A stretch of DNA of 64,000 bases from Bacteroidia bacterium. Its GTDB lineage: Bacteria > Bacteroidota > Bacteroidia > J057 > JAIXKT01. Under the pieces are notes generated by a model. That model was not told the origin of the DNA. It did no database searches and worked only from the letters and a program-made list of their open reading frames with translations. Below, piece by piece: positions 37,038-50,716 of this stretch. Made by a program: the position numbers and the translations under genes. Location of the stretch: contig JAIXKT010000037.1 in assembly GCA_026932145.1 (NCBI GenBank), positions 1 through 64,000 of the forward strand, read 5' to 3'. Within the stretch, counting starts at the first letter, position 1. Every line of letters begins with the position of its first letter.

Positions 37038-39743
37038 CTACCAAGATAGAGTAGCTGAGGTAGCTAATAGCTGAATTTCAGCAATTTTGGCTGCAAACTG
37101 TTGATTTATCAAGCGATTTAGTGAACGCTCGTAATTTTCAATTGCTTGTGTAGCTTCCCACAGACTAATATGGCCGTTTTTCAACTTGTTTAAGGCAGAG
37201 TTTGATAATGATTCTGCTAACAGGATATTTTGTCTTTCATTGCGAAGTTGCTGTATTGCCGTTTGGTATGCTTCCCAGTCTTTTTTGAATTTTATTTGCT
37301 GATTTTGCCTTGCGCCTTGCAGTTTTTGATATTGAATTTGTTGCTGTATATTACTCGATTCGATGGTGCGTTTAGCTGCTCCTCCGGAAAAAATAGGCAC
37401 AGAAAGCGAAATTCCGGCACTTGGCCCATAATTTTGATTCAATAAACTAAAACCTGCTGCAGCCTGACTTAAACTGTAGTTGTAGCCGGCAGAAAGCCGT
37501 AATGTAGGAAAACGTAATGATTGTGCCTCTTTTGAAAGCCAAACTCCAACTTCAACATCAGCTAAGGCAGATAGCAAGTAGGGATGTTTGCTAAGGTTAG
37601 AATAGAGTTTGGAATATTGCAGGGTAGTGTCAATATCAAAATTTTCCGGAAAACGATAGGAAGAATCAGGGGAAACCTGTATTTGCTCCAGCAAGTCAAA
37701 TTCTGCGTATTTTAGCATAAGTTTTTGACTTTCAAAGTTTTGTACGGCTACATTTTTGTCAAATTCTGCTTGCTGAAACTCATCTTGGGTGCTACGCCCC
37801 ATATCAATGCGTTGCTGAATAATCTGTAATTTGTTTTGAGCTGTTTCGATAAGTTTTTGGCTTGTTTTGAGATAAGCCTGTTGCCGGAGCACGTCATAAT
37901 ATTTCAGTAAAGTGGCAGAAGCTGTTTCTAAAATAGTAAGGTCGAGATTATACCGAGCTTGTGAATCCAGAACAGCTAACCGTTTTTGGGTGGCCTGTAT
38001 TTTCCAACCATTGAATAACGTCCATGTTCCGGCTAACTGTGAGTTGAGGCTATTGGAAGAAGCATAGTTTTTTTCAATGATAGTTCCGTTGCTTAGCTTT
38101 TGGTATAAATTAGATAGCTGCGGATTATCGTTTAGTGTTAGCGTAACTACCGGCAATGCACCTGCAATACTAGGGTGATTGTTTATATGTGCTATATCAG
38201 CTTGACTACGAGCTACTTGAATCTGATAATGATTTTTTAAAGCAGCATCAACGGCTTGTCGAGCTGTTAGGGTTTGCTGAGCAACTACTTTTCCGCCCAT
38301 AAATGAAAATAACAGAAGAATAGCTGCCTTTTTAAAGAAAGAATGAAAATTGAACATTTTTTTCCAACTATGTAGGTCAAATAAGCGTGAGTCTGTGGTA
38401 GATTGCCGGGATAAATACACTGCGATGGGAGCTGTAACCAAGATGGGAATCCAAACTCCTAACCATGTTGGTAGTACATCTTCGCGGGCTAATTTTTTCC
38501 CTTGTGTCATCAAAACATAAAATAAAATAAAGAAACCAATAGAAATGATAACCGGCATTCCTAAGCCTCCCTTTCTGATGATTGCTCCTAAGGGCGCTCC
38601 AATGTATAGAAATATAATACAAGCAATTGGTAAGCAGAACTTTAAATGATATTCGATACTATATTTAGCTTCACTTCTTTGTAATTCTGAATTGCGCAGG
38701 CGGGCAACTTCTAAATAATTCAGTGAGCCGCGAACCGAATTAAGGGTTCTTTGGCATATCTCTTTGCGCTGGTGCTGCGGGAATAAGCTAAGTGGATTGG
38801 AAAAAGTAGTGGTATCAGCATTATTATGCTTCTGTAAACGGGTTTCAAACATAAATTGTGGGTGTAAAAATAAACGGGTTTCTTCGGCAATAGTTTTGCG
38901 AAACTTTTTCATAGAATCTAAGGCAGTCCCAATCTCTTGAATATTTAACATATATTGATGAGAGGCAAATAGCTGCTCGTCAGTTTTATTAAGAGAAAAT
39001 CCGGTTAGGTCAAATCGGTATCTTAATGTATCAAAATAGAAGCGGGTATAAGTCCATTTTTGGGTTTTTCCGGGTTCAGGAACAGGTTCATTATGCTGGC
39101 TACCATGAAAAAGTGTCATCATCATAGAGCGCTTATCCGGTGAAATAATCATACTGCCGGAATCTGCTAAGATTCGCTGAACAACTCCGCGATTTTGGGT
39201 ATGGTCATAAATCTGAACATCATACAAAGTATTGGTTTCCGGATTTTTTCCAGAAATGCGTAAAGTATAACCATCTATGCCGTGATAAAATAATCCGGGC
39301 TTCAAAACAAGTTCGGGCTTAGTTTGTTGCACATCATATAACAAACTATACAATTTAAGGTTCGCTATCGGAATCAAATAAAAAGACAATGCAAAAGCAA
39401 CTCCCATCAGCAAAATAGTAACCAAAGCCAATGGATTAATGACCCGAAAGAGGCTGATTCCGGCGGATTTGATGGCTGCTAATTCATAGTTTTCCCCTAA
39501 TTTGCCAAGTGTCATTAAAGAAGCTAATAAAATAGCCAAGGGTAACGCCAGCAAACAAAGTGAGGCACTAGCATAGCAAAATAGCTGCATAATGACCCAA
39601 GTACCAAACCCTTTTCCAAAAATATCATCCTGATATTTTGCTAAAAATTGTAGCACTAATATGAAAAGTGTTACCGAGAACCCAGCAGCGAAAGGCCCTA
39701 TGAAAGAGCGCAGAATAAGAAGGTGAAGTTTTTTTAAAAACAA
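37038..39743 (-). CDS. in-frame fusion of LptF/LptG-family permease and TolC-family outer-membrane protein
   Basis: The 901-residue frame has two complete parts. Residues 1-462 (38358-39743) are an LptF/LptG permease of the LPS export machinery: six transmembrane segments, with a large periplasmic domain between the third and fourth and the family tail TTDSRLFDLHSW. Residues 463-901 (37038-38357) are a TolC-family protein: a signal-peptide-like stretch (FFKKAAILLLFSFMGG.. VVAQQ), then LTARQAVDAALKNHYQI, and long coiled-coil helices with ATQAIENYERSLNRL near the end. The join runs through an A7 tract next to an internal ATG (38357). The two parts may be separate genes joined by an indel or by slippage, or a true polyprotein cleaved at the internal signal peptide. 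The partner genes of either system are not adjacent. Confidence 0.85.
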   Translation of the reverse strand: MFLKKLHLLILRSFIGPFAAGFSVTLFILVLQFLAKYQDDIFGKGFGTWVIMQLFCYASASLCLLALPLAILLASLMTLGKLGENYELAAIKSAGISLFRVINPLALVTILLMGVAFALSFYLIPIANLKLYSLLYDVQQTKPELVLKPGLFYHGIDGYTLRISGKNPETNTLYDVQIYDHTQNRGVVQRILADSGSMIISPDKRSMMMTLFHGSQHNEPVPEPGKTQKWTYTRFYFDTLRYRFDLTGFSLNKTDEQLFASHQYMLNIQEIGTALDSMKKFRKTIAEETRLFLHPQFMFETRLQKHNNADTTTFSNPLSLFPQHQRKEICQRTLNSVRGSLNYLEVARLRNSELQRSEAKYSIEYHLKFCLPIACIIFLYIGAPLGAIIRKGGLGMPVIISIGFFILFYVLMTQGKKLAREDVLPTWLGVWIPILVTAPIAVYLSRQSTTDSRLFDLHSWKKMFNFHSFFKKAAILLLFSFMGGKVVAQQTLTARQAVDAALKNHYQIQVARSQADIAHINNHPSIAGALPVVTLTLNDNPQLSNLYQKLSNGTIIEKNYASSNSLNSQLAGTWTLFNGWKIQATQKRLAVLDSQARYNLDLTILETASATLLKYYDVLRQQAYLKTSQKLIETAQNKLQIIQQRIDMGRSTQDEFQQAEFDKNVAVQNFESQKLMLKYAEFDLLEQIQVSPDSSYRFPENFDIDTTLQYSKLYSNLSKHPYLLSALADVEVGVWLSKEAQSLRFPTLRLSAGYNYSLSQAAAGFSLLNQNYGPSAGISLSVPIFSGGAAKRTIESSNIQQQIQYQKLQGARQNQQIKFKKDWEAYQTAIQQLRNERQNILLAESLSNSALNKLKNGHISLWEATQAIENYERSLNRLINQQFAAKIAEIQLLATSATLSW
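38355..38363 (-). other. A7 homopolymer and internal ATG at the permease/TolC junction
   Basis: On the coding strand the sequence is GGAAAAAAATG, with seven A residues (38357-38363) of which the last is the A of an in-frame ATG (38357-38355). One extra A would end the permease at a TAA 12 codons later (WKKNVQFSFFL) and leave the TolC part to start at this ATG. Confidence 0.7.
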
Positions 39744-39749
39744 CGGAAT

Positions 39750-40385
39750 TTACAAATATTTAAGTTGAATTTCTGCGATAGTTTCCCGAATTCCCCGTGC
39801 CGGTGAAGCCTCTCCAATAACTTTAAACTCCCAATTTTGCCCAGAACGAACTAATTTAGCCAAAATCATCGTAACGTGCCCAGAAAAAGAACGCTCCGAA
39901 GAACAGTTATAGGTTGCAAAAACTTCCTGCACATATTTAGGAGTACCTTCATAAATGCGAATCTTGGAATAGGGAATATGCGCAAAATCCTGATTTTTAA
40001 AGGAATTTAAAAAAAAAACAATTTGCTCAATAGCCGGATTTATTTTGGAAAGTGTAACGCTAATTACTTCATTATCAAGATCATCATCACGCCCTAAATC
40101 ACCTTGGCGGTCATCTCCGCTATGCTGAACAGCTCCATCTGCCGAAATAAGTTTATTAAAGAAAATAGTATCAACGTTGTTTTTTTTATTATCAAATAAC
40201 GAAACGCTTGCATCTAAATCAACGGTTTCGGTTTGTTGAAATAAGTTAAAAAAAAATGAATGCTGAATAGCCCCCCAATTTACCCCAACGCAAATATGCT
40301 CTAACTTTGCCCCTTGTTTTTCTAAAGAGATAGAACTGCCCTTGCTGAGATTGATTCCGGTTTTTTTGTCTAAGTTGATTCCCAT
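39750..40385 (-). CDS. TerD-family calcium-binding protein
   Basis: The 211-residue protein has the TerD fold signature: GINLSKGSSISLEKQ, a VDLDASVSLFD strand and an acidic cluster GDDRQGDLGRDDDLDNE that fits the calcium-binding loop, then SKIRIYEGTP. TerD proteins occur in tellurite-resistance and stress operons. It starts three bases after the stop of a second TerD gene. No terA, terB, terC or ATPase genes are seen, so a stress or sensing role independent of tellurite is likely. Confidence 0.88.
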   Translation of the reverse strand: MGINLDKKTGINLSKGSSISLEKQGAKLEHICVGVNWGAIQHSFFFNLFQQTETVDLDASVSLFDNKKNNVDTIFFNKLISADGAVQHSGDDRQGDLGRDDDLDNEVISVTLSKINPAIEQIVFFLNSFKNQDFAHIPYSKIRIYEGTPKYVQEVFATYNCSSERSFSGHVTMILAKLVRSGQNWEFKVIGEASPARGIRETIAEIQLKYL

Positions 40386-40388
40386 TTC

Positions 40389-40949
40389 TCAGGTATATTT
40401 ATTTACATAGCCTTCTAAGCCAATTTTAGTGCCATTTCCGGTAGCTTGAAATTGCCATTCGTTATTTTCTCTACGCAGCCGCCCAAATTCCACCTCAGTC
40501 ATGTCGGAAAATTCGCTTCCTAAGTTATATCGTAAGATTTCCCGCTTGGTATCCACATCCACAATTCTGATGTAGGCATCGGCAAGTAACCCGAAATGCT
40601 GCCGTTTGGCTATCCCGTCATGGATACTTACTATAATGATAATTTCTTGAATAACAGCATCTACACTTGCAAGGTTTGCCAAAACCATTTCGTCATCATC
40701 ATCACCGATACCGCTCCGGTTATCACCAGTATGCTGAACAGATCCGTCCGGAGACTTCAAATTATTATAAAATATAAAAAACTCATCTACGGGTACTTTT
40801 CCGCTACTACTTAGCATAAAAATAGAAGCATCTAAGTCTAATGCTTGGGTAGTTTTAAGCTCCCAACCCAACCCAATAAGGGCTTTTTTGAGGCCAGGTT
40901 CTTGTTTTGTAAGGTTAAACTTACCTCCCTTTTGTAGGTTAATTGCCAT
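40389..40949 (-). CDS. TerD-family calcium-binding protein
   Basis: The 186-residue paralogue begins MAINLQKGGKFNLTKQEPGL and has LDLDASIFML, the acidic DNRSGIGDDDDE loop for calcium, and ends with GLEGYVNKYT. It is closer to the TerD/TerZ consensus than its neighbour. It is the first gene of a TerD-TerD-permease/TolC run, all on the reverse strand and separated by three and six bases, so all may share one transcript. Confidence 0.9.
   Translation of the reverse strand: MAINLQKGGKFNLTKQEPGLKKALIGLGWELKTTQALDLDASIFMLSSSGKVPVDEFFIFYNNLKSPDGSVQHTGDNRSGIGDDDDEMVLANLASVDAVIQEIIIIVSIHDGIAKRQHFGLLADAYIRIVDVDTKREILRYNLGSEFSDMTEVEFGRLRRENNEWQFQATGNGTKIGLEGYVNKYT

Positions 40950-41887: not shown

Positions 41888-50716
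<8,829 letters not shown>

Follow-up and report, generated by a model that had tools for sequence, protein, structure and literature searches.

The fused gene and its two halves

The 64,000-nucleotide stretch of Bacteroidia DNA analysed here (the window, part of contig 37) carries on its minus strand a single open frame of 901 codons, in which an LptF/LptG-type permease (referred to below as LptG) runs into a TolC-family outer-membrane factor. The frame, its parts and the two genes upstream of it are arranged as follows.

37038..39743, minus strand: fused reading frame, 901 aa, with a TTG start and a stop at 37040-37038 (open reading frame)
38358..39743, minus strand: LptF/LptG-type permease half, residues 1-462, whose C-terminal tail holds the conserved W460 (Pfam LptF_LptG at 10-446; alignment with six relatives)
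38357..38363, minus strand: A7 tract at the junction, covering codons K461 and K462 and the A of M463 (sequence)
38280..38357, minus strand: internal signal-peptide-like stretch, residues 463-488 (MFNFHSFFKKAAILLLFSFMGGKVVA), with a predicted cut before Q489 (hydropathy; Q-rule; parallel with CusA-TolC)
37041..38279, minus strand: TolC-family outer-membrane factor in its predicted mature form, residues 489-901 (Pfam OEP; blastp against TolC proteins of RND operons, best 36-37%)
39750..40385, minus strand: TerD-domain gene upstream of the fusion, its stop 6 bases before the TTG
40389..40949, minus strand: second TerD-domain gene, upstream

At the position of the relatives' ATG the fused gene has TTA, and the TTG two codons upstream (39741-39743, minus strand), which closely follows the TerD-gene stop, was therefore taken as its likely start. 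Rfam returned no RNA feature near the fusion locus. Elsewhere in the window, on the plus strand (41888-50716), a gene encodes a probably secreted protein of 2942 aa, which has a signal peptide, repeated domains and a stretch very rich in glycine.

Both halves of the fused gene are complete. Pfam finds a full-length LptF_LptG domain at residues 10-446 (E 3e-77; 260 bits against a curated PF03739 cut-off of 27.9), and the permease part aligns end to end with its six nearest homologues at 46-50% identity across 464 residues. W460, which is common to all six, precedes the junction, indicating that the permease is not truncated. In its full-length match, conserved residues and tail, the permease thus resembles other members of the LptF/LptG family, which elsewhere in the genomes searched occur without a TolC part; its scores fall below the LptF and LptG equivalog thresholds of NCBIfam (157/230, 118/240), so that it is classed as LptF/LptG-type and as neither F nor G in particular. 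In the second half, OEP/TolC (PF02321) is matched in two stretches, the better at residues 715-895 (E 6e-34), and blastp aligns 430-440 residues to relatives at up to 37% identity. With full-length OEP repeats and a signal-like stretch directly ahead of them (463-488), this part has the make-up of an outer-membrane factor, its score lying below the NCBIfam TIGR01844 cut-off (89/225). A first-pass annotation of this DNA had described an LptF/LptG permease fused in frame to a complete TolC-family protein, and the 901-codon frame, the Pfam matches and the full-length alignments bear this out.

The source genome (3.48 Mb in 66 contigs, rated 100% complete) contains the fused gene as its sole long LptG copy, together with a second LptF/G of 364 aa on contig 12. 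As the only long LptG of a genome with this completeness rating, the product of the fused gene should be functional.

The junction and its A7 tract

Hydropathy analysis resolved the LptG membrane segments and one extra hydrophobic segment at residues 469-487. Across the junction the chain reads DSRLFDLHS-W460-K-K-M463-FNFHSFFKKAAILLLFSFMGGKVVA-QQTLTARQA, with A488 as the last residue before QQ, and it can be read both as the basic tail of an LptG and as a textbook TolC signal peptide. The six relatives continue past the conserved tryptophan for 15-18 residues, most of them basic, before the stop, and the n-region of the internal signal lies where these proteins carry that basic tail. All the features of a Q-rule signal are present, namely a basic n-region (FFKK), the core AAILLLFSFMGG, and KVVA|QQ with a small residue at -1 and Gln at +1. 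Among the predicted substrates of Bacteroidetes signal peptidase I, 71% on average have Gln at +1 (the 'Q-rule'; PMC5837995), and a crude scan of 500 kb of the source genome gave 56 signal-like N-termini, membrane proteins not yet removed, of which 29 had a small residue plus Gln after the core. On these features, a signal peptidase I cut after residue 488 (VVA|QQ) is predicted as likely. Since the C-terminus of LptG is cytoplasmic, the signal-like stretch that follows it could use the N-in orientation. The earlier proposal of a signal-like stretch at the start of TolC, placed in a topology that suits an internal signal and open to a cut that would free TolC, is thereby supported, VVA|QQ fitting the Q-rule (PMC5837995).

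The same junction holds an A7 tract, and a sequencing or assembly indel within it could have joined two genes that in truth overlap, lie in different frames and are each complete with a stop and a start. The tract sits exactly at the junction, a coincidence of 1-2% (five of 348 starts have an A7 there; 0.6 tracts per kb), LptG is a separate gene in all relatives, and a tract one base longer would stop LptG 10 residues past W460, near the end of the relatives' tail. We scored the coding frame on either side of every homopolymer of at least 7 bases in 500 kb of the source genome, and the frame was kept at 247 of 256 informative homopolymers (among them 194 tracts of 7 bases, 45 of 8 and 7 of 9). 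The nine frame-changing tracts were read, and most of them, including all five A7 cases, proved to be ordinary gene boundaries. No unexplained frame change was thus found at A7 among more than 190 other tracts in the coding DNA of these 500 kb, which places the error rate per tract below an upper bound of about 1.5%, and most 8- and 9-base tracts are intact too. Two separate genes would also have to overlap by 26 nt if the tract were one base longer, which 5 of 266 co-directional pairs reach, or by about 72 nt if it were one base shorter, which none of the 266 reaches. An indel artefact is therefore unlikely, and a small residual chance is left for it.

Two of the nine frame-changing tracts lie in a dnaX-type gene, at an A10, and in what is perhaps a transposase, at an A9. 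In the dnaX-type gene (L067:18568-19716 onwards, about 82568-83716 of contig 37) a first frame of 382 aa ends just past the A10 and the shifted frame goes on, marking a candidate slippage site that might yield a short and a long product; in Thermus dnaX, slippage gives two such products. At the A9 (contig 1:30493; about 10493 of L072) the gene continues in another frame, possibly through a programmed frameshift or because the gene is broken.

Programmed slippage on the A7 of the fused gene would, as in dnaX, produce part LptG stopping just past the tract and part fusion, and the dnaX-type A10 lends this some precedent within the genome. However, A7 is common in coding DNA here, the length-7 tracts counted above keep frame, and seven bases are short for transcriptional slippage, so that we consider this explanation very improbable.

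Occurrence and related fusions in Bacteroidota

A search of the full fusion against 59 related genomes and 395 genomes of the phylum (about 450 Bacteroidota), as the first-pass annotation had proposed, returned no other LptG and TolC in a single frame among the matches listed, where any LptG-TolC fusion would rank top. A first contig scan with the whole fusion as query also found no relative, and TolC was sought beside LptG in 30 named loci of GTDB genomes (L109-L138) and found in none of them. The same annotation had held that relatives with two separate genes would speak against the fusion. LptG is indeed separate in every other genome searched, but in the loci read TolC does not lie beside it, which makes the fusion lineage-specific rather than false. 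As judged from these searches, the LptG-TolC fusion is lineage-specific and known from one genome.

Several longer frames were considered as further fusions and rejected. In a 729-aa TolC frame of genome G028, Pfam finds TolC alone, preceded by an open stretch of high-GC DNA; the long LptG frames L140, L141 and L143 owe their length to open DNA upstream, and L139, L142 and L144 to extensions at the C-terminus of LptG.

LptG does run in frame into Fmt (methionyl-tRNA formyltransferase) in two Bacteroidales MAGs (L117:3977-6406, which includes a masked stretch, and L120:4001-6388), and several further LptG proteins bear C-terminal extensions, indicating that LptG tolerates C-terminal additions. 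The Fmt chains are like the present one in that the C-terminus of LptG runs on into the next gene; their second part is cytoplasmic and would need no signal, whereas the TolC part would be exported.

A parallel that involves TolC itself is provided by fusions with CusA/CzcA. The source genome encodes one, of about 1467-1468 aa (L054:4926-9329, equal to contig 21:190928-195328, minus strand), in which a CusA/CzcA RND pump (TIGR00914, 1160 bits) forms the first half and is followed by PPKAALLMLFGFFVFPAFS-QQ and then by TolC. About half of the 59 related genomes have CusA/CzcA-TolC in one frame, about 1450 aa long, and some (for example, G041) also carry a pump and a TolC as separate, adjacent genes. 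We read 31 CusA-TolC fusions, including the one from the source genome; in all 31, which are related sequences and so not 31 independent tests, a hydrophobic core after the pump is followed within about 25 residues by [AGS]-Q, typically AxA-Q. As a control, an [AGS]-Q-type pair occurs in 37% of 21-aa windows of TolC domains. The linker around the core varies among the 31, and in 23 of them no ATG lies ahead of the core. The simplest reading of these sequences is that CusA-TolC chains are polyproteins which signal peptidase I would cut; a literature search found no paper on their internal signal.

The count of ATG codons bears on another explanation of the LptG-TolC gene, in which the fusion frame is real, yet TolC would come mainly from translation that starts internally, at the in-frame ATG of M463, leaving the polyprotein as a by-product or minor species. 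M463 would give TolC a normal-looking signal peptide with the basic n-region FFKK, and its start-context score falls within the range of real starts, at their 20th percentile. The score lies equally within the range of internal ATGs, 19% of which score as high, and in those 23 of the 31 CusA-TolC fusions the ATG route is barred. We regard internal initiation as a minority possibility.

LptG-TolC and CusA/CzcA-TolC have in common an inner-membrane protein with a cytoplasmic C-terminus, an internal Q-rule signal-like stretch and TolC, in this order and in one frame. They differ in that the halves of CusA/CzcA-TolC are parts of one efflux pump, whereas LptG is functionally unrelated to TolC, and in that the CusA/CzcA fusion is old and conserved while LptG-TolC occurs in one genome. 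The first half of the 901-aa frame is LptF/LptG and not an RND pump (PF00873). By this comparison, the LptG-TolC chain is expected to work like the CusA/CzcA-TolC fusions but is not one of them. The first-pass annotation had known of no described example, which holds for LptG-TolC in the literature searched, but not for the layout of inner-membrane protein, internal signal and TolC, which is common in the phylum as CusA/CzcA-TolC.

The fbcH gene of Bradyrhizobium japonicum, which encodes a cytochrome b/c1 precursor, likewise places an internal signal peptide after an inner-membrane protein within one gene, and signal peptidase cuts its product there into two proteins. The case differs in that the proteins are unrelated and in that the fbcH products form one complex.

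Predicted products and their significance

The closest relatives of the TolC part in the phylum (35-37% identity) stand in HlyD-RND-TolC operons or alone, and its full-length match, at this identity, to the L055-L057 TolC proteins likens it to the outer-membrane factors (PF02321) of such operons. The operon TolC goes with its pump, whereas the LptG-attached TolC is not beside its own. An RND pump of this operon type has one clear counterpart in the source genome (contig 11:46680-49694; 61-62% identity to the pumps of L055 and L057), and no TolC is found among its neighbours. Because the TolC part belongs to the clade of RND operons and a matching pump without TolC is present on contig 11, we infer that this pump is most likely the one it serves.

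LPS export uses LptA and LptDE, so that no functional link between the LptG and TolC halves is expected, and a joint LPS-export/TolC transport function was dropped as no context supported it. The earlier suggestion that the fusion joins two transport routes of the envelope accordingly finds no support, given a TolC clade that is encoded with HlyD and RND pumps and a cognate-type pump on another contig. For the fusion to stay whole and act as a single transporter across the envelope, linking LPS export with TolC efflux, there is the shared reading frame only, against which stand the Q-rule cleavage site, the RND company of this TolC clade, the established use of LptA/LptDE and the matching RND pump without an adjacent TolC; we give an intact transporter almost no credence.

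We consider it probable, from the sequence comparisons taken together, that the locus is a real, lineage-specific fusion encoding a polyprotein that signal peptidase I would cut into LptG and TolC. The ribosome would make LptG first, as part of one chain, and from its cytoplasmic C-terminus the stretch 463-488 would engage the translocon in the usual way, N-in, with the TolC part exported behind this internal signal. Cleavage at VVA|QQ would then yield an LptG slightly extended at its C-terminus, and a normal TolC bound for the outer membrane. Each product would act on its own, LptG in LPS export, where permeases of its family work with the LptB ATPase, and TolC most likely as the exit duct of an RND pump. 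The fusion may have arisen when a TolC gene was placed downstream of lptG and the stop between them was lost, the signal peptide keeping both fused products usable. Points against a polyprotein are its occurrence in a single genome, the coincidence of the A7 tract and the good placement of M463 for an ordinary separate TolC start.

LptG-TolC is a rare variation on the CusA/CzcA-TolC layout and not a new transport machine. Its main interest is that it gives a second partner to an architecture widespread in the phylum, and it suggests that unrelated envelope genes can fuse harmlessly where a signal peptide parts them. Of wider bearing is the internal Q-rule site of the CusA-TolC fusions. That Bacteroidota commonly make TolC as the tail of inner-membrane proteins, with signal peptidase I freeing it at internal Q-rule sites, is a proposal for which we see the chances as even, and our literature search found no description of such a general habit. 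If cleavage is true, many 'CusA/CzcA pumps' of about 1450 aa would be two proteins, and the stoichiometry, localisation and annotation of CusA/CzcA-TolC would read differently.
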